This document shows positions 6,156-16,289 of a DNA stretch of 46,042 nucleotides, one piece after another. Under the pieces are notes generated by a model, which was not told where the DNA came from, did not search any database, and saw nothing but the letters and a program-made list of their open reading frames with translations. The DNA comes from Yinghuangia seranimata (lineage in GTDB: Bacteria; Actinomycetota; Actinomycetes; Streptomycetales; Streptomycetaceae). A program made the position numbers and the translations under genes. Within the stretch, counting starts at the first letter, position 1, and each line of letters opens with the position of its first letter. Location of the stretch: contig NZ_JASAOI010000016.1 in assembly GCF_029953285.1 (NCBI RefSeq), forward strand, positions 1-46,042. The letters run 5' to 3'.

Positions 6156-6665
6156 ATGCGCGATCTGCGCGCGGTCGTGGGCGGGGCGGCGGGCGCCGTC
6201 GCCGCGCAGTTCGACGCCGCCACGCGGGCCCGCAGGTGGGAGTTGTTCCGCGAGGCGTTCCCCGACATCGAACGGCTCGCCGTCGTCGACCTCGGCGGGA
6301 CGCCGGAGTTCTGGCTGCACGCGCCGGTCCGGCCGGCCCGCGTCGAGGTCGTACGGGCGGACGCCAAACCGCAGCGGGTGCTCGGCTGGCTGGCCGTCGC
6401 GGTCGGCGAGCCGGCCGCGTTCGGGTCGCCGGGCGACGAGGGCACGGCGTACGACCTGGCGGTCTGCGACGGCCTGCTGGACGCGACCCCGCCCGGCGCG
6501 CGCGGCGCGCTCGCCCGCACGGTCCGCGGCCTCGCGCCGCGCTACTGGGTGCGGTCCGAAGAGGCGCGGCCCGCCGAACTCGCCGGGCTGTTCCCGGACG
6601 CGGTGCGGCGCCGCGAGCGGCGGGGCGGGCTGACCTGCTCGTGGGTCGCCGCCAAGCCGGGCTGA
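6156..6665 (+). CDS. Methyltransferase-like protein, probably degenerate
   Basis: A 169-residue protein. The segment RRWELFREAFP followed by VVDLGGTPEFW looks like the first strand and glycine loop of class I SAM-dependent methyltransferases common in actinobacterial sugar clusters, and the late APRYWV also fits. It is shorter than the usual 230-250 residues. The acidic GDA-type motif and the NSVIEH-like segment of that group are not recognisable; in their place is DLAVCDGLL. It may have lost activity or play a binding role. The start at 6156 has GGGGA just upstream; ATG at 6144 is an alternative. It is first in the forward operon, 59 nt before the dehydrogenase. Confidence 0.7.
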   Translation: MRDLRAVVGGAAGAVAAQFDAATRARRWELFREAFPDIERLAVVDLGGTPEFWLHAPVRPARVEVVRADAKPQRVLGWLAVAVGEPAAFGSPGDEGTAYDLAVCDGLLDATPPGARGALARTVRGLAPRYWVRSEEARPAELAGLFPDAVRRRERRGGLTCSWVAAKPG

Positions 6666-6724
6666 CCGCGCCGAAGCGCGTCGGCCCACCGACACAGGCT
6701 GGTTCTTGGGGAGGGGAACGGGTC

Positions 6725-7990
6725 ATGGGCATGAGAGTGGTCATCGCCGGCCAGGGGTACGTGGGGCTGCCGCTCGCGGTGCGCGCCGCGCAGGTCGGGC
6801 ACGACGTGGTCGGGTACGACACCGACGAGCGCCGGGTCAAGCAGCTCGCCGCGGGCGAGTCGTACGTCGAGGACATCCCGGCCGCACAGGTCCGGGAGAT
6901 CCTGGACGCCGGCCGCTACAAACCGACCGCCGAACCGCGCGACCTCGGCGGGTTCGACATAGCGGTGATCACGGTTCCGACGCCGCTGCGCGAAGGCGTC
7001 CCGGACCTGACGTACATCGAGGACTGCGCACGCACCCTGTCGCGCTACCTGCGCCCGGGCGCGACGGTCGTCCTCGAGTCGACGACCTACCCGGGCACCA
7101 CCGAGGAGCTGGTGGGCCCGATCCTGGAGGAGGGCTCCGGCCTGGCCGCGGGCCGCGACTTCCACCTCGGCTACAGCCCCGAGCGCATCGACCCGGGCAA
7201 CCCCACCTGGAACCTGGTCAACACCCCGAAGGTGGTCTCCGGCATAGACGACGCGTCGCTCGCGCTCGTCGACGGCTTCTACGGCTCGCTCGTCGAACGC
7301 ACCGTGCCGGTCGGCTCGCCCAAGGAGGCCGAGCTGGTCAAGCTGATCGAGAACACCTTCCGGCACGTCAACATCGCGCTCGTCAACGAGGTCGCGATGT
7401 TCGCGCACGACCTCGGCATCGACGTGTGGGAGGCCATCGACGCCTGCTCCACCAAGCCGTTCGGCTTCCTGCGCTTCACCCCGGGCCCCGGCGTCGGCGG
7501 CCACTGCCTGCCGATCGACCCGTCCTACCTCTCCTGGCGGGTGCAGCGCGCGCTCGGCCAGAGCTTCCGGTTCGTCGAGCTCGCCAACGACGTCAACAAC
7601 CACATGCCGGACTACGTCGTCCGCCGCCTCACCGCCGCGTTCAACGCCCGCAAGCGCTCCGTCAACGGCTCGCGCGTCCTGCTGCTGGGCCTGGCCTACA
7701 AGAAGAACACCGGCGACGCACGCGAGTCGCCCTCGACCCGCATCGCCCGGCTGCTCCTCGACCTGGGCGCCGAGGTCACCGCCGTGGACCCGCACGTGGA
7801 CCTCGCCCAACGCGTCGACTCACGCCTCCTGCGCGCCGACCTGACCGCCGAAGCGGTCGCGGCCGCCGACGCCGTGGTCCTCGTGGTCGACCACGACGAC
7901 CTGGACCTGGAACTGGTCCGCACGCACGCCGCCTACATCCTGGACTGCCGGCGCGCGCTCGGACGCGCGGACAACGTGGAGGTGTTGTGA
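6725..7990 (+). CDS. UDP-N-acetylhexosamine 6-dehydrogenase (WbpA/WecC type)
   Basis: A 421-residue nucleotide-sugar dehydrogenase that should carry out the two-step NAD-dependent oxidation of C6 to a uronic acid. The N-terminal dinucleotide site is GQGYVGLP (residues 9-16). Catalytic candidates are K206 and N210 (KLIENTFRHVNIAL) and the nucleophile C261 in GVGGHCLPIDP. The GHCLPIDPSYLSW segment and the NAxR/K..N arrangement favour the UDP-GlcNAc or UDP-ManNAc group over UDP-glucose dehydrogenases. A strong GGGGAGGGGAA precedes the ATG at 6725. The stop overlaps the next GTG by 4 nt. In context it would supply UDP-HexNAc uronic acid as the first island intermediate. Confidence 0.9.
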   Translation: MGMRVVIAGQGYVGLPLAVRAAQVGHDVVGYDTDERRVKQLAAGESYVEDIPAAQVREILDAGRYKPTAEPRDLGGFDIAVITVPTPLREGVPDLTYIEDCARTLSRYLRPGATVVLESTTYPGTTEELVGPILEEGSGLAAGRDFHLGYSPERIDPGNPTWNLVNTPKVVSGIDDASLALVDGFYGSLVERTVPVGSPKEAELVKLIENTFRHVNIALVNEVAMFAHDLGIDVWEAIDACSTKPFGFLRFTPGPGVGGHCLPIDPSYLSWRVQRALGQSFRFVELANDVNNHMPDYVVRRLTAAFNARKRSVNGSRVLLLGLAYKKNTGDARESPSTRIARLLLDLGAEVTAVDPHVDLAQRVDSRLLRADLTAEAVAAADAVVLVVDHDDLDLELVRTHAAYILDCRRALGRADNVEVL

Positions 7991-9048
7991 CCGAAGGGCC
8001 CGGCCCGAGGCCCACGACGGGGGAATCGGGTACCACTGGAACGACGCTGCCCGGGTTCGCACCGGAGCGGCTGGCCAGGCTCGCGTTGCGGGCGGTGGCC
8101 GATCTGAAGCTCGACCTGACCGGGCGGACGGTGCTGACGGAGGCCGCGACCGGGGCGTATGCGGTGACGCCGGTGCTGGCGTCGCTCGCGGGGGCGCGGG
8201 TGATCGCGTTCACGCGGGACACGCGCTACGGGACGGCGGAGGAGGTGTCGTTCCTGACCGGCATGGTCGGGCTGTTCGCCGGGACGCGGCACCCGATCGA
8301 CATCGTCACCGAGCTGCTGCCCGAGCACGTCGAGGCGGCGGACATCGTGACGAACAGCGGCCATCTGCGGCCGATCGACGCGGCGTTCGTGGCACGGCTG
8401 AAGCCGACCGCGGTGGTGCCGCTGATGTTCGAGGCGTGGGAGGTCGGGCTCGGCCGGGACGACGTGGACCTGGCGGCGCTGCGGGCGCGCGGGATCGCGT
8501 TCGCCGGCACCAACGAACACCACGACCTGATCGGCGTGTTCGAGCACCACCGGGCGATGGTGGGGCGGCTGATGTCGGACTGCGGCATCGCGGTCTACGG
8601 CGCCAACTGCGTTGTGCTGTGCGACAACCCGTTCGAGCCGGAGATCGTCGACGGCCTGGTGCGCGCCGGCGCGCGCGTGCACTGCGCGGGCTCGCTCGAC
8701 CGGGTGAACACGCCGGAGGACGTCGACGCGGTGCTGATCGCGCTGCGGCCCGGCGCCAAGCCGGTCGTCGGCCCCGCCGAGGCGCGGCGGATCGCCGACC
8801 GGTGGCCGGGGGCCGTGGTCGTCCAGGTGTGGGGCGACGTCGACCGGGAGGCGCTGACCGCATACGGCGTGCCGTTCTGGCCGCCGGTCGGCCCGAAGCC
8901 GGGGCACATGGCGATCCTGCCGTCGGCGGTCGGCCCCGAACCGATCGTGCGACTCCAGGCCGGCGGCCTGAAGGTCGCTCAGATCCTGCTGACCAGGCCG
9001 GAGTTGCGGTCGGACGAGGACAAGGAGTACCTCGATGAGCTCAGCTGA
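7987..9048 (+). CDS. Unassigned two-domain Rossmann-like protein
   Basis: A 353-residue protein I cannot assign. It reads as two alpha/beta domains. The first (about 27-190) has LTGRTVLTEAATGAYAVTP and a run of conserved-looking strands ending AVVPLMFEAWE. The second (about 200-330) begins GIAVYGANCVVLCDNPFEP. The layout recalls 2-hydroxyacid dehydrogenases or the NAD domain of S-adenosylhomocysteine hydrolase, but no clean GxGxxG is present. The GTG at 7987 overlaps the previous stop (GTGA) and has GGAGG just upstream. The 3' end overlaps the formyltransferase by 14 nt. Tight coupling to both neighbours suggests an island-specific step or a regulatory role. Confidence 0.75.
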   Translation: MTEGPGPRPTTGESGTTGTTLPGFAPERLARLALRAVADLKLDLTGRTVLTEAATGAYAVTPVLASLAGARVIAFTRDTRYGTAEEVSFLTGMVGLFAGTRHPIDIVTELLPEHVEAADIVTNSGHLRPIDAAFVARLKPTAVVPLMFEAWEVGLGRDDVDLAALRARGIAFAGTNEHHDLIGVFEHHRAMVGRLMSDCGIAVYGANCVVLCDNPFEPEIVDGLVRAGARVHCAGSLDRVNTPEDVDAVLIALRPGAKPVVGPAEARRIADRWPGAVVVQVWGDVDREALTAYGVPFWPPVGPKPGHMAILPSAVGPEPIVRLQAGGLKVAQILLTRPELRSDEDKEYLDELS

Positions 9049-10024
9049 GGTCGGCCCCGTGCCGCGGGCGCGCGTCGTGCTGGTCGGCATCGGCCCGACC
9101 ACACTCGACGCACTCGACGCGCTCGCCGATCGGTGCGAGGTGGTCGCGCTGATCCGGCCCGGCGACGACGACACGACGGCGCGCGCCGCCAAGCTCGGCA
9201 TCCCGGTCGAACCGGGCACGCGCGTCGCCGACATCGAGGCGGTGGTGGAACGGCTGGCGCCGGACGCGGTGGTGGTGTCGTCGTACGACCGAATCCTGCC
9301 CGACCGCCTGCTGGCCCGCTGCCCGTTCGTCAACGTGCACTACTCGCCGCTGCCGCGCGGGCGCGGCCGGGCCAACGTCAACTGGGCGATCATCAACGGC
9401 GACACCGAGACCGCGATCACCGTGCACACCATGGCGCCGGGGCTCGACGCGGGCGGGATCCTCCACCAGGAGCCGGTGCCGATCGGGCCGCGCGACACCG
9501 TCACCGACCTGTACGACCGGCTGAACGCCCGGCAGCGGGCGGTCCTCGCCGACGCCGTCCTGCGCCGCCTGACCGGCGACGAGGGCGACCCGCAGGACCA
9601 CGGCCAGGCCACCTACGGCTGCACGCGCCTGCCGGAGGACGGCGAGATCGACTGGTCGGCCCCGACGGCGGACACCGACCGGCTCGTACGCTCGCTGACC
9701 CCGCCGTACCCGGGCGCCTTCACCCACCTCGGCCTGGAGCCGCTCCGGATCCTGCGGGCCGAACCGTCCCCCGACGCCCCGCGCTACACCGGCCGCGTCC
9801 CGGGCCGCGTGGTGCTCGTCGACCGCTCCGGCGAGGGCTGGGTAGAGGTGCTGACGGGCGACGGCGTGCTGCGCGTCCACGAGGTCGCGCAGGGGGACGG
9901 CCCGCCCGTCCCCGCGAACACGGTCGTGAAGTCGGTGAAGACCACCCTCGGCGTGCGCACCGCCGATCTGCTCGCCGCGCTCGCCGCGCTGCGGGCGTCC
10001 GGCACGGGCCCGGCGCAGGGCTGA
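9035..10024 (+). CDS. Sugar N-formyltransferase (methionyl-tRNA formyltransferase fold)
   Basis: A 329-residue protein of the formyltransferase family using N10-formyltetrahydrofolate. The catalytic triad as placed in ArnA and related sugar enzymes is present: N100 and H102 (VNVHYSPLPRGRG) and D138 (GLDAGGI). The loop RGRANVNWAIINGDTET matches sugar formyltransferases better than the housekeeping tRNA enzyme. A C-terminal OB-like domain follows from about residue 215. AAGGAG lies 7 nt before the ATG. In the island it would formylate an amino sugar made by one of the two DegT enzymes. It could in principle be a second tRNA formyltransferase, but context argues against that. Confidence 0.88.
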   Translation: MSSAEVGPVPRARVVLVGIGPTTLDALDALADRCEVVALIRPGDDDTTARAAKLGIPVEPGTRVADIEAVVERLAPDAVVVSSYDRILPDRLLARCPFVNVHYSPLPRGRGRANVNWAIINGDTETAITVHTMAPGLDAGGILHQEPVPIGPRDTVTDLYDRLNARQRAVLADAVLRRLTGDEGDPQDHGQATYGCTRLPEDGEIDWSAPTADTDRLVRSLTPPYPGAFTHLGLEPLRILRAEPSPDAPRYTGRVPGRVVLVDRSGEGWVEVLTGDGVLRVHEVAQGDGPPVPANTVVKSVKTTLGVRTADLLAALAALRASGTGPAQG

Positions 10025-10226
10025 ACGTGGGGCTGACGACGTACGGCTGACGACGCGGGGGGGGGGGGGGGGGGGGGGGGGGGGGCGGCCCCCCCGCCGC
10101 CGCGGCGCGGCGCCCGGCCGCCCCGGGGCGGCGGTCAAGGGGGGGCTGACGAGTTCGGGCGGACGAGGCGGGGGGGGGGGGGGGCGGGGCAGCCCCCCCC
10201 CCCCCACGCCTTTTCCGGCCGACCCG
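10025..10226. repeat. Homopolymer-rich convergent intergenic region (29-G run)
   Basis: Between two converging operons lie 29 consecutive G (10057-10085), a GC-rich patch, 15 G (10170-10184) and 13 C (10193-10205). The last G and C tracts are complementary and could fold. A natural bidirectional terminator may have been here. The long pure runs more probably reflect base-calling failure past a strong hairpin, or a join made across low-quality ends. No coding sense is visible. Confidence 0.6.
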
Positions 10227-11765
10227 TCAGCGCACGGGTTCCGACGGGTCGGTCCGACCGGCCGGCTCGACCCGGAGCGGGACGGTGCCGCCGGAGACGC
10301 ACTCGCCTGTCGCGAGGTCCCACTTCCAGTGGTGGCGCGGGCATTCCAGGACGCCCTCGCCGTCGATGTCGGCGAGCGCCAGGTCCTCGCCCGCGTGCGG
10401 GCAGAACCGCTGGAAGGCGTAGCCGCAGCGCTCGATCGTCTCGCCGCTCGCGGCCTCGGCGCGCTCCCGGACCATCTGCATGGTCTGGGCCGGATGGTTG
10501 CCGTAGCGCAGCAGGCTCATCAGGGTCAGGTCGAACACGTCGGGGTCTCGGTGCAGGCTCAGACGCAGCGAGAGCAGCGCCTCCTCCCAGCCGATCTTCC
10601 CGTCGACGATGGCGCGCAGCGCCCGCGGCGGGACGTGGATGGTGTACCCGGCGTCGACCGGGTCCTCCTCCAGGGCGCCACCCACCCGGCCGAGCCGCAC
10701 CGCCCAGGTCGTGCCGTCCGCGACGAGCCGCACATCGCGCTGGTAGTCGGCGAGGAAGCGCTTGTTGAAGCTGATCAGCTTCGAGAAGTAGGCGTCCAGC
10801 TCGACCGCGCCGACCGGTTCGAACGGCTCGTCGTGGTACGCCTGCCACTCCGCCTCGCGGCGGTCCCGGTACGCCGCAAGGTAGGCCTCCGGCTCGGTCC
10901 GCCACCGGCCCCGGTCGGGCGTGTTGGGCGGGAACACGCCCAACTCGCCGAGGGTGTCCCCCGGTTCCAGGCAGACCGTGGCGACGCCGGGGCAGGCCGC
11001 CGCGAAGTCCTCGGCCACGTCGTCCCACACCGGGAAGATCGTCGAGGAGCGGTCGTTGAAGCGGTCCAGCTCCGGGTCGAGGAAGCACGGCGGGCCCGCG
11101 GCCGGCAGGTACGTCGACGCGCCGGTCAGCCGCACCTTGCGCACCAGGGTGTCGAACAGGTCGCCCCGCACCTCGGCCGTCTTGCGCCGCTGCACCTCGT
11201 CCGGGTACGCGTAGCAGTTCGGATACCACATCGCGCCCGAGAACTGCGCCGACAACAGGTCGACGTCGCCGGGCAGTTCGGACAGCGGCGTGTTGCAGTC
11301 GTTGAGATCGAGGAACCGGAAGTCCCCGAGGTCGACGATTAGTCCGCTGTCCTCCTTGTGCGACGTGTCCAGCAGCATCGTCAGCACGAACCCGTCGGCG
11401 GCCTCGTAGCGCTCCTTGTGCCCGAGCTGGACGAGGTTCCGGAAACCGAGCGCGTGGAGCCGCTTGACCATCGACCTGGACCGGTAGTCGGGTATGACGA
11501 CCGTGATGTTGTCGCTGTCGAGCTGGGCCAGGACCCGCTCGTCGAAGTGGTCCTCGTGCTCGTGCGACAGGTACAGCAGGTCATAACGTGCCGTGGTGAC
11601 GCCCTGGAGCAGCGCGCGGTTGTCCGGGAACGGGAACCACGCTCCGAGGAACGCCGGGTGGAACCACGGGTCGATCAGCAGGCGCACGCCCGCGTGCGCG
11701 ACCTCGTAGCCGGCGTGCCCCAGCGCGCGGATCCGCGCGCCGGGCGGAAGTGAGCGCCCGGTCAT
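10227..11765 (-). CDS. MBL-fold / Rieske protein, predicted nucleotide-sugar N-acetyl hydroxylase (NamH/CMAH type)
   Basis: A 512-residue two-domain protein. The N-terminal metallo-beta-lactamase-like domain carries HxHxDH as H68-E-H70-E-D72-H73 (LSHEHEDHF). The C-terminal domain is a Rieske 2Fe-2S site with C455-P-H457 and, 17 residues on, C475-P-R-H478. This combination and length match the family of mycobacterial NamH (UDP-MurNAc hydroxylase) and animal CMAH (CMP-Neu5Ac hydroxylase), which convert N-acetyl to N-glycolyl on activated sugars. The ATG at 11765 overlaps the preceding stop (ATGA), so it is coupled to the aminotransferase. It is last in the reverse operon. No dedicated ferredoxin or reductase is nearby. 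The substrate (island sugar or UDP-MurNAc) is inferred, not shown. Confidence 0.85.
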   Translation of the reverse strand: MTGRSLPPGARIRALGHAGYEVAHAGVRLLIDPWFHPAFLGAWFPFPDNRALLQGVTTARYDLLYLSHEHEDHFDERVLAQLDSDNITVVIPDYRSRSMVKRLHALGFRNLVQLGHKERYEAADGFVLTMLLDTSHKEDSGLIVDLGDFRFLDLNDCNTPLSELPGDVDLLSAQFSGAMWYPNCYAYPDEVQRRKTAEVRGDLFDTLVRKVRLTGASTYLPAAGPPCFLDPELDRFNDRSSTIFPVWDDVAEDFAAACPGVATVCLEPGDTLGELGVFPPNTPDRGRWRTEPEAYLAAYRDRREAEWQAYHDEPFEPVGAVELDAYFSKLISFNKRFLADYQRDVRLVADGTTWAVRLGRVGGALEEDPVDAGYTIHVPPRALRAIVDGKIGWEEALLSLRLSLHRDPDVFDLTLMSLLRYGNHPAQTMQMVRERAEAASGETIERCGYAFQRFCPHAGEDLALADIDGEGVLECPRHHWKWDLATGECVSGGTVPLRVEPAGRTDPSEPVR

Positions 11766-12895
11766 GCGGCGTCCTGGTTCCGCAGCGCCTTGGCGAGCGC
11801 CTCGACGACGCGCACCTGCTGCTCCTCGGTGATCTGCGGGTAGAGCGGCAGCGTCAGGATCTCGGCTGCGGCGCGCTCGGCGACCGGGAAGTCGCCCGGC
11901 GCGTGCCCGAGCGCGCGGAACGCGGGCTGGAGGTGCACCGGGACGGGGTAGTGCACGCCCGCGCCGATCCCGGCCGCGTTGAGGTCGGCGAGGACGGCGT
12001 CGCGCCGGGCGACCCGGACCGCGTACAGGTGCCACACGTGGACGTTGCCGGGCGCGGTGCGCGGCAGCCGCACGCCCTCGACGTCCGCCAGCAGCGCGTC
12101 GTACCGCGCCGCGGCCTCCCGGCGGGCCTCGTTCCAGCCCGCGAGCCGCGCGAGCTTGGCGCGCAGCACGACGGCCTGGAGCGTGTCGAGCCGGGAGTTG
12201 AAGCCGAGCCGGTCGTGGACGTATTTGCGCGACGACCCGTGGTCGCCCAACTCGCGGACGATCCGGTCGAGGTCGGCGTCCCCGGTGAGCACCGCGCCGG
12301 CGTCGCCGTACGCACCGAGGTTCTTCCCGGGGTAGAAGCTGGTGCCCGCCGCACGTCCCCACGAGCCCGCGCCGCGTCCGTCCTGCGTCGCGCCCTGGCA
12401 CTGCGCGGCGTCCTCGAACAGCCGTGCACCGGTGGATGCGGCGAGCTCCATCAGCGGCGCCATCGGGGCGAGCTGGCCGTTGAGGTGCACCGGCAGCAGC
12501 CCCCAGACGCCGTCGGTGACCGCGCCGGCCGCCGCGGCCGGGTCCAGCAGCAGGTGCTCGTCGTCGACGTCGGCGAACACCGGGGTGCCGCCCGCCCGCA
12601 CGACCGCCTCGGCGGACGCGACGAAGGTGTTCGCCGGCATCACCACCCCGGCGCCTTCCGGCAGTTCGTCGGCGCGGAGCATCAGCTCCAGCGCGTCCGT
12701 GCCGTTCGCCACGCCCACGCAGTGCGCGACCCCGCTGAACTCCGCGAACTCGCTCTCGAAGGCCGCGACGTCGGGCCCCTTGATGAACGCACCGGAGGAG
12801 AGCACGCGCGCGAAGCCCGCCTCGACCTCGGCCGCCACCTCGGCGTGGCCCGCGAGCAGGTCGACCAGAGGGACGTTCGCCTGATCCGCCGTCAC
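11762..12895 (-). CDS. DegT/DnrJ/EryC1/StrS aminotransferase (first of two)
   Basis: A 377-residue PLP-dependent sugar aminotransferase. The Schiff-base lysine is K191 in FYPGKNLGAYGD; the cofactor-binding acid is in FEDAAQCQGA. The FYPGKNLGA motif and N-terminal VPLVDL resemble 3-aminotransferases of the WbpE, FdtB and DesV type acting on 3-keto sugars. The GTG at 12895 overlaps the upstream stop by 4 nt, and its own stop overlaps the Rieske gene start by 4 nt, so three genes are translationally chained. With the 6-dehydrogenase and the Gfo/Idh enzyme it could make a 3-amino-uronic sugar. The regiochemistry is inference. Confidence 0.9.
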   Translation of the reverse strand: MTADQANVPLVDLLAGHAEVAAEVEAGFARVLSSGAFIKGPDVAAFESEFAEFSGVAHCVGVANGTDALELMLRADELPEGAGVVMPANTFVASAEAVVRAGGTPVFADVDDEHLLLDPAAAAGAVTDGVWGLLPVHLNGQLAPMAPLMELAASTGARLFEDAAQCQGATQDGRGAGSWGRAAGTSFYPGKNLGAYGDAGAVLTGDADLDRIVRELGDHGSSRKYVHDRLGFNSRLDTLQAVVLRAKLARLAGWNEARREAAARYDALLADVEGVRLPRTAPGNVHVWHLYAVRVARRDAVLADLNAAGIGAGVHYPVPVHLQPAFRALGHAPGDFPVAERAAAEILTLPLYPQITEEQQVRVVEALAKALRNQDAA

Positions 12896-14070
12896 GACAG
12901 CACCCCCGCGGGCTCCGGCACCGTCAGGCCGGCCGCGGCGTACAACGCCCCGACGACCCGGTCGTGCTGCTCCTCGGTCATCTGGTGGAACAGCGGCAGG
13001 ATCAGCGAATCCCTGGTCAGCCGCTCGGTGTTGGGCAGCGGGACGTGCGCGACGTCCGCGTACGCGGGCTCCAGGTGGGCGGCCATGATGCCGCGCCGCC
13101 CCGAGATACCGGCCGCCGACATGCGGCCCAGCAGTTCGTCCCGCGCGACCGGGAAGTCCTCGTCGAGCAGCAGCCAGCAGGCCTGGAAGTTCGACTCGCC
13201 GAACGCGGGGTCCTCGACCAGGCGCGCGCCCGGCAGCCCGGACAGCGCCTTGCGGTAGCGCTCCGCGAAGCCGCGGCGCTTGGCGACCATCGCGTCCAGG
13301 CGGCCGAGCTGCACCAACCCGATGGCGGCCTGGACGTCGGTCATCCGGTAGTTGAAGCCGAGTTCGTCGTACGTCTCCAGGACCGGCGCCGCTCCCCCGC
13401 GGTCCGCCGCGTCCCGGTCCGCCGCGCTCACGCTCATGCCGTGCTCGCGCAGCCGGCGCAGCCGCGCGCCGACGTCCGCCCGGTCCACCGTGACCATGCC
13501 GCCCTCGCCGGTGGTCAGCAGCTTGCGCGGATGGAACGAGTACGTCGCGAACGACGCGCCCGCACCCGCCGGACGGCCGCGCAGCGTCGAACCCGCCGCG
13601 CACGCCGCGTCCTCGACCACCACGATGCCCAGCGGGTCGCACAGCCCGCGCATCGCGTCCAGGTCGGCCGGGACACCGCCCTGGTCGACCAGGATCACGG
13701 CGCGCGTGGCGGCGGTCCGCACCGCGTCCACCGTCTCCACCGTCAGGTTGCCCGACGCCAGGTCGACGTCGGCGAACACCGGCCGCGCGCCGACGTACCG
13801 CACCGCGTTCGCCGTCGCGATGAACGACAGCGACGGGACGACCACCTCGTCGCCCGGCCCCACCCCGGCCGCGATCAGCGCCAGGTGCAGCGCCGTCGTG
13901 CACGACGAGACCGCGACCGCGTCGGCCACCCCCAGCCGTTCCGCGAACGCCCGCTCGAAGGCGGCCACCCGCGGCCCCTGGGCCACCCACCCCGACGCGA
14001 CGGCCTCCGCCGCCGCCTCGGCCTCCTCAGGGCCGAACCACGGCTTCATGACCGGTATACGCTCGCTCAC
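12892..14070 (-). CDS. DegT/DnrJ/EryC1/StrS aminotransferase (second of two)
   Basis: A 392-residue sugar aminotransferase of the same superfamily but clearly different from its neighbour. The PLP lysine is K183 in SFHPRKLLTTGEGG, and the cofactor acid is in VVEDAACAAG. SFHPRK..TTGEGG is typical of the PglE, PseC and ArnB branch that often transaminates C4 of 4-keto sugars. The GTG at 14070 follows a GGGGGG tract at about 5 nt; ATG at 14049 is an alternative. There is a 119-nt gap after the epimerase gene. No 4,6-dehydratase is present here to make a 4-keto sugar, so its substrate is unclear. Confidence 0.9.
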   Translation of the reverse strand: MSERIPVMKPWFGPEEAEAAAEAVASGWVAQGPRVAAFERAFAERLGVADAVAVSSCTTALHLALIAAGVGPGDEVVVPSLSFIATANAVRYVGARPVFADVDLASGNLTVETVDAVRTAATRAVILVDQGGVPADLDAMRGLCDPLGIVVVEDAACAAGSTLRGRPAGAGASFATYSFHPRKLLTTGEGGMVTVDRADVGARLRRLREHGMSVSAADRDAADRGGAAPVLETYDELGFNYRMTDVQAAIGLVQLGRLDAMVAKRRGFAERYRKALSGLPGARLVEDPAFGESNFQACWLLLDEDFPVARDELLGRMSAAGISGRRGIMAAHLEPAYADVAHVPLPNTERLTRDSLILPLFHQMTEEQHDRVVGALYAAAGLTVPEPAGVLS

Positions 14071-14189
14071 CGAACCCCCCACACATGTGCCCCCACGTTG
14101 ATGTGCCTTGTGCCTGACGGCGGTTGACGACGGCGAACGGCGGCCGACGGTTCCCGCCGTGACCACCGCCCGCTCCGCGTCGGACGCGC

Positions 14190-15206
14190 CTACTTGCTGT
14201 CGGACCACCAGGCGACCAGTCGACGCAGCCCCTCGTCCAGGCCGACCGACGCCGTGAAACCCAGCTCCCGCTCGGCCTTCGAGGTGTCGGCGAGCCGCCG
14301 CGTCACCCCGTTGACCGCGCGCTCCGGGCCGTGCTCGACGCCCAGTTCGCTCCCCATCGCGACGAGCAGCCGCTCGGCGAGCTCCTTGAGCGACGTCTCG
14401 ACGCCGCACGCGATGTTGTAGACCTCGCCGCTGACCGGCGCGGCCGCCGCCAGCAGGTTGGCGCGCGCGATGTCGGCCGTGTAGACGAAGTCCATGGTCT
14501 GCAGGCCGTCGCCGAAGATCAGCGGCGGCTCGCCCTTGCTGATCCGCTCCATCCACCGGATCAGGACCTCGGTGTACAGGCCGTGGATGTCCATCCGCGG
14601 GCCGTACACGTTGAAGTAGCGCAGCGCGACGTAGTCCAGCCCGTACATCGCCTTGAAGCTGCGCAGCAGGCCCTCGTTGAACAGCTTGGCGGCGCCGTAG
14701 ATGGTGTCGTTGTCGTACGGGTGGTGCTTCTCGGTGGTCGGGAACTCCTCGGCGAGCCCGTACACCGACGCCGACGACGACGCCACGACCTTGCGCACCC
14801 CCGCGCGCTGCGCCGCCTCCAGCACGTCGAACGTGCCGTCGACCAGCACCTCCAGGGCCAGCCGCGGGTCCTCGACGCACTGCGTGATGCGGATCGCCGC
14901 GAGGTGGAACACCACGTCCGTGCCGGGCATCAGCTCGGCGAGCAGCGCCCGGTCGCGGATGTCGCCCTCGACCAGCCGGCAGCGGTCGCCCCGCGCGGGG
15001 TCGAGCGCGTACGCGAGGTTCTCGCGGCGTCCGCGGGTCAGGTCGTCGAGCACCACGACCTCGCGCGCGCCCGCGTCGAGGAGTTGGTCGACGATCGTCG
15101 AGCCGATGGTCCCCGCGCCGCCGGTGACCAGGCACCTGGTGCCGGCCAGCGCAACGGCGGGGGAGCCCCCGGAGGTCGCAGTCGCCTCGATCGGCAGGTC
15201 AGCCAT
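14190..15206 (-). CDS. NAD-dependent epimerase/dehydratase, NDP-sugar 4-epimerase-like
   Basis: A 338-residue extended short-chain dehydrogenase. The nucleotide site is TGGAGTIGS (28-36), the catalytic pair is Y170 and K174 (YGAAK), and the serine motif is SSSASVYG. The late segment LRYFNVYGPRMD is typical of UDP-hexose 4-epimerases. The sugar could be UDP-GlcNAc, UDP-GalNAc or a uronic derivative. The ATG at 15206 lies 6 nt after the stop of the Gfo/Idh gene, so the two are cotranscribed. The first 20 residues are an extra tail before the Rossmann fold. Confidence 0.88.
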   Translation of the reverse strand: MADLPIEATATSGGSPAVALAGTRCLVTGGAGTIGSTIVDQLLDAGAREVVVLDDLTRGRRENLAYALDPARGDRCRLVEGDIRDRALLAELMPGTDVVFHLAAIRITQCVEDPRLALEVLVDGTFDVLEAAQRAGVRKVVASSSASVYGLAEEFPTTEKHHPYDNDTIYGAAKLFNEGLLRSFKAMYGLDYVALRYFNVYGPRMDIHGLYTEVLIRWMERISKGEPPLIFGDGLQTMDFVYTADIARANLLAAAAPVSGEVYNIACGVETSLKELAERLLVAMGSELGVEHGPERAVNGVTRRLADTSKAERELGFTASVGLDEGLRRLVAWWSDSK

Positions 15207-15212
15207 GCTCGT

Positions 15213-16289
15213 TCAGCCCTCTCGCCCGGGAACGCTCCGCGCCGCCGGCACCCCGGGGCCGACCGGCACCGCGATGCCGCCGGCCTCCAGGCTGCGCGAC
15301 GCCGCCTCCAACATCTCCAACACCCGCAGTCCCGCGCGACCGTCGGTCAGCGCGGGCCGGGACTCCCTGATCGCCGAGGCGAACTCGGCCATGACGCCGC
15401 GCAGCGCCTCGGTCTGCGGCAGCGCCGGCGAGACGACGTCGCCGGTGCGGTAGGACACGAGCTTGGCGTGCCGCGCCTCGCGCCCCAGCGCGGCGTCCTG
15501 CGCGAGGTCGATGCCCTTGTCGTGGATGTGCAGCCGGGCCGCCGGGTTCATGTCGTCCCACACCAGCGTGCGCCGCGAGCCGCCGATGATGGTCGTGCGG
15601 ACCTTCGTCGGCGACAGCCAGTTGACGTGCACGTGCGCGATCGCGCCGGTGTTGAGGCGCAGCGTCAGGTAGGCGACGCACGCGCGCCCGGTGCCGATCG
15701 GGTCGGCGCCGTGCGCCGCGACCGAGATCGGGTGCACGCCGGGCGGCAGGATGAAGTCGAGGATCGACAGGTCGTGCGGCGCGAGGTCCCACAGCACGTC
15801 CACGTCGGGCTGGACGAGCCCGAGGTTGATGCGCACCGAGTCGATGAACTGGATGTCGCCCAACTCGCCGCCGTGCAGCATGTCGCGGATGGTGCGGACC
15901 ACCGGCATGTAGCAGAACGTGTGGTCGCACATCAGCGTGAGGCCGTTGCGTTCGGCCAGTTCGACGAGCTTGACGGCGTCCGCGCGGGTCGCCGTGATGG
16001 GCTTCTCGACGAGCACGTGGCGGCCGGACTCCAGTGCGGCGCGCACGAGTTCGAAGTGCGTCGCGGCGGGCGTCGCGATGGCGATCGCCTCCACCGCGGG
16101 GTCGTTCAGCAGTTCGTCGTACGACGTGCTCACCCGGACCGTGCTGTAGTCGCCCAGCACCGCCCGCGCGCGCTCCTCGTCGAGGTCGCACAGCGCCTCG
16201 ACCCGCAGGCCCGGCGTGGCCTGCGCGTTCCGTATCAGATTCGGCCCCCAGTACCCGGCGCCGACCACCGCGATACCCACTGACGACAT
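15213..16289 (-). CDS. Gfo/Idh/MocA oxidoreductase, predicted nucleotide-sugar 3-dehydrogenase
   Basis: A 358-residue protein. The N-terminal Rossmann domain has GAGYWGPN (10-17) and the family EKP at residues 95-97. The C-terminal sheet domain carries WDLAPHD, the position of the catalytic Asp/His in sugar dehydrogenases. GAGYWGPNL and WDLAPHD are shared with WlbA/WbpB-type enzymes that oxidise C3 of UDP-GlcNAc uronic acid. It is first in the reverse operon and would feed the 3-ketone to an aminotransferase. The ATG at 16289 is followed by a typical VGIAVVG strand. The substrate is inferred from context. Confidence 0.88.
   Translation of the reverse strand: MSSVGIAVVGAGYWGPNLIRNAQATPGLRVEALCDLDEERARAVLGDYSTVRVSTSYDELLNDPAVEAIAIATPAATHFELVRAALESGRHVLVEKPITATRADAVKLVELAERNGLTLMCDHTFCYMPVVRTIRDMLHGGELGDIQFIDSVRINLGLVQPDVDVLWDLAPHDLSILDFILPPGVHPISVAAHGADPIGTGRACVAYLTLRLNTGAIAHVHVNWLSPTKVRTTIIGGSRRTLVWDDMNPAARLHIHDKGIDLAQDAALGREARHAKLVSYRTGDVVSPALPQTEALRGVMAEFASAIRESRPALTDGRAGLRVLEMLEAASRSLEAGGIAVPVGPGVPAARSVPGREG

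Follow-up and report, generated by a model that had tools for sequence, protein, structure and literature searches.

The Wbp/Wlb pathway of P. aeruginosa leads to UDP-ManNAc3NAcA and the PglF/PglE/PglD route to diacetamido-bacillosamine, and routes of the VioA/VioB type are known besides. NamH (Rv3818) is a UDP-MurNAc hydroxylase, while CMAH is a vertebrate protein. Formyl- and glycolyl-capped sugars are rare. Here, we describe an island of nine open reading frames within a 46,042-nucleotide stretch of DNA (the window) from Yinghuangia, a soil actinobacterium; in the open-licence literature, no title or abstract opening was found that describes this gene set. The most likely product is a sugar derived from UDP-HexNAc that carries amino groups at positions 3 and 4 and is destined for a surface polymer, with the formyl group probably at N4 and N-glycolylation possibly carried out by a NamH paralogue.

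The initial annotation named seven gene classes, all of which are present as long open reading frames and match family models (Table 1). It omitted the gene g3unk, and the position it gave for the start of the island, 6156, is the start of the u184 ORF, outside the named classes. As it had proposed, two operons converge; their meeting point has a run of 29 G residues and a G/C hairpin, perhaps a terminator shared by both. A consensus terminator scan of positions 9900-10400 found no terminator. The overlap coupling claimed for the operons holds for udh/g3unk/fmt, where g3unk shares 4 bases with the dehydrogenase gene and 14 with the formyltransferase gene, and for AT1/AT2/rieske, but not for gfo and sdr, which lie 6 bases apart, or for sdr and AT1, where the gap is 107 or 119 bases depending on the start chosen.

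Table 1 Features of the Yinghuangia island, with positions in the window.
Feature	Position	Strand	Description	Family match or remark
u184	6156..6665	+	169-aa protein	No match in Pfam/NCBIfam
udh	6725..7990	+	Nucleotide-sugar 6-dehydrogenase, UDP-HexNAc (UDP-ManNAc/GlcNAc) type	TIGR03026
g3unk	7987..9048	+	353-aa two-domain Rossmann-like protein	Start codon assumed
fmt	9035..10024	+	Predicted sugar N-formyltransferase, ArnA formyltransferase domain nearest	PF00551 + PF02911
Intergenic	10057..10208		29-G run and G/C hairpin with T4 (by eye), between the convergent operons	
rieske	10227..11765	-	MBL-fold protein with C-terminal Rieske [2Fe-2S] domain, NamH/Rv3818 paralogue	PF13483 + PF00355
AT2	11762..12898	-	DegT aminotransferase, sugar-3-aminotransferase type	PF01041
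AT1	12892..14082	-	DegT aminotransferase, sugar-4-aminotransferase type	PF01041; start 14082 or 14070
sdr	14190..15206	-	Extended SDR with epimerase-type motif SSSASVYG	PF01370
gfo	15213..16289	-	Gfo/Idh/MocA dehydrogenase, predicted C3 oxidation	PF01408

All nine ORFs stand in identical order in the 3/3 Yinghuangia genomes compared and are 59-92% identical to their counterparts in both other genomes, so the island is not a chance product of reading frames. Homologues of u184 (59-60%) occupy the same place in both; others were found in one g3unk locus (L029, 36%) and near Wzx/udh in another locus (L143, 35% over 115 aa). Our guess from its sequence is that u184 is perhaps SAM-methyltransferase-like.

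Domain families and active-site motifs were established for the island enzymes, and no island protein reached an NCBIfam equivalog cut-off. Udh scored 400 bits against TIGR03026 (cut-off 190); UDP-ManNAc dehydrogenase models outscored UDP-glucose models, all of these staying below their own cut-offs, and the best PDB match was 4r16 (E 1e-73). For gfo, in which EKP95-97 and H172-D173 are conserved, the best NCBIfam model was the archaeal UDP-GlcNAc 3-dehydrogenase at 128 bits (cut-off 450). The best PDB matches of AT1 were ArnB, followed by perosamine synthetase and TlmJ, and the PseC model gave 288 bits, below its cut-off. AT2 matched 2oga (named only Transaminase), QdtB, a glutamine--scyllo-inositol transaminase (7b0d) and WbpE. 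Both K187 of AT1 and the PLP lysine K192 of AT2 are conserved. We take the enzymes matching AT2 to be 3-aminotransferases and those matching AT1 to be 4-aminotransferases; as both types are conserved, a diamino sugar is probable. At the sdr motif, Glu is absent in 50 of 64 aligned rows and present in the other 14, whose motif is dehydratase-like. Glu at this position is presumably the catalytic residue of dehydratases and of ArnA/UXS-type decarboxylases. The acidic residue before VYG is missing in sdr, which was therefore rejected as a 4,6-dehydratase or ArnA-type decarboxylase.

Sugar N-formyltransferases of the ArnA/VioF/QdtF kind are recognized by Formyl_trans_N with an N-x-H...D site, which fmt contains. 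N100, H102 and D138, which we take to be the catalytic residues, are each kept in 93% or more of the 26 aligned rows. The best PDB match was ArnA (117 bits), and the methionyl-tRNA formyltransferase model reached 136.6, below its cut-off of 201.5. Gene context points to an amino-sugar as the putative substrate. Two distant formyltransferase-like matches lie elsewhere in the genome, on contigs C98 and C108.

The Rieske protein shares with NamH (Rv3818 type) an architecture of MBL fold and Rieske CxH/CxxH motifs, and its metal motifs C455-x-H457, C475-x2-H478 and H68-x-H70-x-D72-H73 are invariant in four sequences. It is 33-36% identical to the genome's own Rv3818/NamH-type protein. PF25451, the Rv3818-like SCP2 domain, matched the paralogue on contig C21 (E 3e-13), but neither the island protein (E up to 0.001) nor two Amycolatopsis homologues (E up to 0.01). 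Identity with NamH was thus rejected: the PF25451-bearing homologue sits on C21, and the island protein is a paralogue, not an orthologue. With this amendment, the NamH/CMAH-type Rieske protein belongs to the set as annotated, likewise in two Amycolatopsis clusters with homologues of 59% identity. Its gene occurs in only 3/72 g3unk loci, all actinobacterial.

G3unk matched no family in Pfam or NCBIfam. An AlphaFold2 model built from 56 sequences (pLDDT 92.9, confident), used in place of an earlier three-sequence model that was too poor (pLDDT 67.7), shows a two-domain protein. Its Foldseek neighbours are D-2-hydroxyacid dehydrogenases and dipicolinate synthase A, with TM scores of up to 0.62 by target and, among the 50 matches listed, of 0.33-0.53 by query. 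The fold resembles an NAD-dependent D-2-hydroxyacid dehydrogenase; no full GxGxxG was seen by eye in the alignments.

A search for the gene set in other genomes, as proposed with the initial annotation, was run with g3unk as bait and with SDR orthologues. The g3unk-baited scan yielded 72 loci, their phylum labels being many. Two marginal g3unk matches, with E values of 2e-4 and 1e-3 and about 30% identity across some 130 aa, were dropped before counting. In the 48 loci with full flanks, i.e., at least 7.5 kb on each side of g3unk, raw tblastn counts (1e-6) were 48/48 for sdr, 46/48 for AT1, 44/48 for gfo, 38/48 for AT2 and 25/48 for fmt, SDR, DegT and hexapeptide genes being common in polysaccharide loci anyway. 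Automatic gene calls in high-GC loci were confused by shadow ORFs, hence the reliance on tblastn, and the promiscuous hexapeptide ('wlbB') counts were given no weight. Of the 56 g3unk loci that carry both sdr and AT1, 50 have the two on the same strand and no more than 400 bases apart; fmt is present in 29/72 loci, and in 27 of the 29 it directly follows g3unk. In G245 (L016) and Pedococcus (L067), gfo-sdr lies apart from g3unk-fmt, with no AT1/AT2 within the stretch examined.

A close SDR orthologue was found in 36/394 class genomes, a 44% match in G503 having been dropped (36 of 37 used). G3unk occurs in 3/36, and all three g3unk-positive class genomes, our own included, are SDR-positive; both searches used a seemingly identical draw of 394 genomes. 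We fetched 20 loci from the 33 SDR-positive genomes without a g3unk match (G094 was fetched later, outside these 20). None of the 20 held g3unk or fmt; all four core genes were present in 18, the exceptions being a 4.2-kb contig (L123) and a locus with AT2 cut at the edge (L125), and a PglD-type acetyltransferase lay between AT1 and AT2 in 13. A Wzx-like gene was found in 12/20, glycosyltransferases were also present, and Wzy was found in those scanned. Independent occurrence of the two operons, which had been named as grounds for refutation, thus turned out asymmetric: SDR occurs without a g3unk match in 33/36 genomes, whereas g3unk is nearly always accompanied by the core.

The core order gfo-sdr-AT1-AT2 is common to the window and its relatives, and what fills the slot between AT1 and AT2 varies. 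In Nocardioides currus and two Actinoplanes, a single operon reads gfo-sdr-AT1-g3unk-fmt-AT2; on this arrangement, the reading of two unrelated operons was rejected. The earlier claim of one nucleotide-sugar system is supported. G3unk-fmt fills the slot in L020, L023 and L024, and g3unk occupies it without fmt in three Amycolatopsis (L036, L039, L047). In the window the slot is empty, the two aminotransferase genes overlapping, and g3unk-fmt lies on the converging strand. Fmt and pglD co-occur in 1/72 g3unk loci. The window's single hexapeptide match falls within a GlmU-like ORF at 20.3-22.1 kb, and another such match lies on contig C68 of the genome. These comparisons establish the slot replacement along with gene content, order and conservation. 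The island is a variant of a Gfo-SDR-AT1-[acyltransferase]-AT2 core found in many actinobacterial polysaccharide loci, with the PglD-type gene replaced by g3unk and the formyltransferase. A formyltransferase in the place of an acetyltransferase had been annotated, and is found exactly so in three related genomes; the gene replaced, however, is of PglD type and adjoins the ArnB/PseC-like aminotransferase, which makes formylation at N4 more likely than at the 3-amine of the Wbp route.

The uronic-acid step is less general. Udh is linked to the set in Yinghuangia and in 3/3 SDR-positive genomes of one further genus, probably Streptomyces, and in G055, G094 and G147 a distance of 17-19 kb separates sdr from the best orthologue (71-72%), but a close orthologue is absent from 16/36 SDR-positive genomes. 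Of these 16, 14 have a weaker (30-46%) nucleotide-sugar dehydrogenase. The step is plausible for the Yinghuangia island.

From these data we infer the substrates, the pathway order, the amine and formyl positions, the product and the polymer. We give even odds to a single activated amino-sugar as the island's product, built stepwise from UDP-HexNAc and destined for a cell-surface polymer. Udh would oxidize C6 of UDP-HexNAc; gfo would then oxidize C3 and AT2 aminate it. The sdr would open the way to a ketone at C4, to be aminated by AT1; as its motif is of the epimerase type, the released 4-ketone is an assumption. Fmt would transfer a formyl group from N10-formyl-THF to the new amine, and the MBL-Rieske protein may convert N-acetyl to N-glycolyl by hydroxylation. 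G3unk would carry out a conserved step on the same intermediate.

The same genes may instead make two sugars of one polymer, a 3-amino type by gfo/AT2 and a 4-formamido type by sdr/AT1/fmt, with the Rieske protein acting on one of them. We consider this possible, with some reserve: Bacteroidetes loci hold gfo-hexapeptide transferase-AT2 and sdr-AT1 as separate blocks, and flavobacterial-type loci (L069, L071-L073, L075, L076) contain gfo, g3unk, sdr and, in 5/6, AT1, all without AT2. The actinobacterial genes, in contrast, are interleaved, with all four in 18/20 of the fetched SDR loci. An Arn-like role, in which a transient formyl group aids transfer of a pentose or hexose to polyprenyl phosphate and is removed later, en route to lipids or proteins, appears unlikely. 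Its appeal lies in ArnA and ArnB being nearest to fmt and AT1, in Bacteroidetes loci that encode a PMT_2 protein along with a GT2 protein scoring with PgfS and ArnC models and a small EamA-like one, the latter two without reaching the model cut-offs, and in the 2,3,4-triacetamido-2,3,4-trideoxy-L-arabinose known in Psychrobacter (PMC8040287). The sdr, however, lacks the Glu that we take to mark ArnA/UXS-type decarboxylases, and no GT2 homologue of the PgfS/ArnC kind was found in the window.

That the island follows the Wbp route to a 3-amino uronic sugar with formyl replacing acetyl at N3, as initially annotated, seems quite improbable. In its favour, udh, gfo and AT2 belong to the classes used by Wbp, and overlaps join udh to g3unk and g3unk to fmt. 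Against it, sdr and AT1 would have nothing to do; g3unk-fmt in relatives replace a PglD-type gene adjoining AT1, and the same genome carries a separate Wbp-like set on contig C68 (dehydrogenase, 2-epimerase, Gfo, aminotransferase and acetyltransferase). That the island serves a small molecule bearing an amino-sugar or an aminocyclitol, and not a surface polymer, we regard as very improbable. Searches with Wzx, Wzy, Wzz, GT and PglD proteins found no homologue in the window, and thus no flippase or glycosyltransferase of these kinds, and the 7b0d match of AT2 carries a scyllo-inositol name; yet no NRPS or PKS was found in nine flanking ORFs scanned, relatives lie in Wzx/Wzy polysaccharide loci, and the island is conserved in all the Yinghuangia genomes compared.

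A single activated diamino sugar for the cell surface would have consequences beyond Yinghuangia. Surface sugars determine phage and toxin binding; in Streptomyces, a teichuronic-acid-like polymer with ManNAc3NAcA or GlcNAc3NAcA is reported to be a receptor for umbrella toxins (PMC13274773). The order gfo-sdr-AT1-acyl slot-AT2 is a recognizable signature in actinobacterial genomes, and the slot content predicts formylating versus acetylating strains. The g3unk family is conserved and directly assayable. Tentatively, the loci may represent a widespread undescribed pathway to 2,3,4-triamino-2,3,4-trideoxy sugars for surface polymers, in Yinghuangia a hexuronic acid with N-formyl and N-glycolyl groups, with g3unk as founder of a new enzyme family whose step would be obligatory under non-standard acyl groups.

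Compared with Wbp/Wlb, the island has in common the classes of 6-dehydrogenase, Gfo/Idh and 3-type DegT aminotransferase, at scores below equivalog cut-offs; it adds the SDR, the 4-type aminotransferase, g3unk, the formyltransferase and the Rieske protein, and lacks a WbpD-type acetyltransferase and a 2-epimerase. Its actinobacterial relatives resemble PglF/PglE/PglD and VioA/VioB in combining an SDR, an ArnB/PseC-like aminotransferase and a PglD-type acetyltransferase. Unlike in these routes, the SDR is without the dehydratase Glu, g3unk and the formyltransferase take the place of PglD, and Gfo and AT2 are extra. The Arn pathway to UDP-L-Ara4FN is matched by the ArnB-like aminotransferase and the ArnA-like formyltransferase, and in Bacteroidetes relatives by ArnC-, EamA- and PMT_2-like partners, whereas the island has a separate SDR without the decarboxylase Glu, a UDP-HexNAc-type dehydrogenase, a second aminotransferase and g3unk. 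The Rieske protein, finally, is NamH/CMAH-like in its MBL-fold and Rieske architecture and its metal motifs, and departs from NamH in its unmatched PF25451, its distance from the genome's own Rv3818-type protein and its location in a sugar-nucleotide cluster.

All seven gene classes that the initial annotation had named in the window (contig C107 of a 9.8 Mb source genome in 113 contigs) were present among the nine ORFs composing the island stretch and matched family models: a nucleotide-sugar 6-dehydrogenase (udh), a predicted sugar N-formyltransferase (fmt), an MBL-Rieske protein, 3-type and 4-type DegT aminotransferases (AT2 and AT1), an extended SDR (sdr) and a Gfo/Idh dehydrogenase (gfo). 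The two ORFs left unnamed, u184 and the 353-aa protein g3unk, have no match in Pfam or NCBIfam. The proposed overlap-coupled operons hold for udh/g3unk/fmt on the plus strand and for AT1/AT2/Rieske on the minus strand, but gfo-sdr and sdr-AT1 do not overlap. The island is flanked by mfd and an aldehyde dehydrogenase gene on one side and by a toxin/immunity-like pair made up of a YwqJ-like deaminase and a SUKH-3 immunity protein, situated between island and pth, followed by pth and rplY on the other; mfd, pth and rplY are presumptive names from reading of their sequences. At the position of the spacer between the convergent operons, two other Yinghuangia genomes carry 1.2-2.0 kb with different ORFs, and the spacer is thus a variable or hard-to-sequence spot.

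Positions of features in the window and on two further contigs of the same genome
Feature	Contig	Position	Strand	Content
u184	C107	6156-6665		Island ORF
g3unk	C107	7987-9048	+	Island ORF
Spacer	C107	10057-10208		29-G run and G/C hairpin
YwqJ-like deaminase	C107	16627-17199	+	PF14431
SUKH-3 immunity protein	C107	17142-17687	+	PF14433
L147	C68	7.4-13.2 kb of locus L147		Compact set: acetyltransferase, aminotransferase, Gfo, 2-epimerase, 6-dehydrogenase
L010	C21	7.7-10.7 kb of locus L010		Rv3818-type/NamH-type MBL-Rieske gene divergent from second UDP-HexNAc-type dehydrogenase

All nine ORFs are kept in order in both other Yinghuangia genomes examined (59-92% identity). Among 200 genomes of the family, g3unk was found in the three of Yinghuangia, two further marginal matches being left out, and among 394 genomes of the class in three. 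Scanning a species-genome collection with a five-sequence alignment yielded 72 g3unk loci, a lower bound since the two peptide patterns used miss some of the family. Their labels span Actinobacteria, Bacteroidetes, Chloroflexi, Cyanobacteria, Acidobacteria, Planctomycetes, Proteobacteria, Thermodesulfovibrio and others, and are to be taken cautiously because many are MAGs.

Forty-eight of the 72 loci had at least 7.5 kb on either side. Raw neighbour counts in this subset (g3unk-baited, tblastn 1e-6, no random-locus baseline) were sdr 48, AT1 46, gfo 44, AT2 38, fmt 25, a PglD-type gene 6, udh 4 and Rieske 3. Across all 72 loci, 29 contained fmt; in 27 it directly followed g3unk, and in one (L061) it occurred together with pglD. 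Chitinophagaceae loci commonly run gfo-hexapeptide transferase-AT2-g3unk-fmt-GT2-EamA-like-sdr-AT1, in some cases with an added 6-dehydrogenase; this GT2 scores best, below cut-off, with the PgfS and ArnC models. Elsewhere NeuD/PglD-type, other hexapeptide, GNAT or FemAB-like genes occupy the position after g3unk. Hence, g3unk is probably a companion of the acyltransferase rather than the acyltransferase itself. Six flavobacterial-type loci (L069, L071-L073, L075, L076) carry gfo, g3unk, a methyltransferase, a NeuD/PglD-type transferase, a FemAB-like gene, GT2, an EamA-like protein and an SDR with the Glu motif, and lack AT2.

The AF2 model of g3unk (56 sequences) reached a pLDDT of 92.9 and a pTM of 0.90. 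In a Foldseek comparison, the best 50 rows had 9-18% identity and a TM by target of up to 0.62, with D-2-hydroxyacid dehydrogenases and dipicolinate synthase A among them. Forty positions are conserved in at least 90% of rows, 32 of them before residue 190, i.e., in the first domain, and no canonical GxGxxG was seen in g3unk by eye.

Using sdr as bait instead, a close orthologue was found in 36/394 class genomes (65-77% identity, the window's own excepted; a 37th match at 44% was dropped), and all three g3unk-positive genomes fall among these. The other 33 gave no g3unk match. Twenty loci fetched from them (L120-L139) contained gfo (20/20), AT1 (20/20) and AT2 (18/20), and neither g3unk nor fmt (0/20). 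The slot between AT1 and AT2 held a PglD-type gene in 13/20; of four such genes scanned, all matched Hexapep and three PglD_N. A Wzx-like protein was present in 12/20. A giant DMFA2_C/Ig-like (Big)/DUF4082 protein lies alongside the gfo-sdr-AT1-AT2 core in 15/20 loci, and was noted for L036 and L039 as well.

In three other genomes g3unk and fmt occupy the same slot, namely those of Nocardioides currus (L024/L014), Actinoplanes aureus (L020) and A. solisilvae (L023), and this is the strongest support for the proposal that a formyltransferase stands in place of an acetyltransferase. The replacement is not uniform, however: three Amycolatopsis loci (L036, L039, L047) have g3unk without fmt in the slot, and g3unk-fmt lies outside it in the window itself and in actinobacterial L016, L019, L022, L028, L067 and L078.

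As to the proposed uronic-acid step, orthologues of udh (E up to 1e-100) occur in 152/394 class genomes and, by hand count, in 20/36 SDR-positive ones; of the remaining 16, 14 have a 30-46% dehydrogenase and two none at 1e-30. Genus g9, probably Streptomyces, has three SDR-positive genomes; in these, 17-19 kb separate the best udh (71-72%) from sdr, and a Wzx-like protein, a WlbB-like transferase and a 2-epimerase resembling WecB are encoded nearby. Therefore, udh is a plausible, but not universal, pathway member in this family.

NamH and CMAH convert N-acetyl to N-glycolyl groups, and by analogy the island Rieske protein probably makes N-glycolyl. Homologues with 59% identity adjoin sdr in two Amycolatopsis clusters; neither these nor the island protein matched PF25451. 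The second udh on C21 is 79% identical to that of the window, and the divergent Rieske/udh pair is also present in Y. soli; in genome G001 neither a second Rieske match nor a second close udh was found. The C68 set, comprising a dehydrogenase (32%), 2-epimerase (PF02350), gfo (30%), aminotransferase (43%) and hexapeptide transferase, is a separate Wbp-like route in the same genome, perhaps serving a teichuronic-acid-like polymer. Contig C28 encodes a DMFA2/DUF4082 protein, a PglD-like protein and an SDR, as well as what by eye is an initiating sugar transferase.

Signatures that we take to be catalytic are intact: GGHCLPIDP in udh (by eye), N-x-H...D in fmt, EKP and HD in gfo, the PLP lysines of AT1 and AT2, and CxH/CxxH in the Rieske protein. 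The sdr motif is SASVYG-type, and the dehydratase Glu is absent from 50/64 aligned rows. Structures matched by AT2 are 2oga, QdtB, WbpE and a scyllo-inositol transaminase, and those matched by AT1 are ArnB, TlmJ and perosamine synthetase; QdtB and WbpE aminate C3, ArnB and perosamine synthetase C4. The nearest relative of fmt is ArnA. On the simplest reading, the predicted product is a diamino, formylated UDP-HexNAc derivative, oxidised at C6 in Yinghuangia.

Literature searches covering open-licence papers listed none that describes this gene set. Psychrobacter contains a 2,3,4-triacetamido pentose, for which the pathway was stated to be unknown in 2021 (PMC8040287). The predicted chemistry belongs to a known type; the gene combination and g3unk look new.
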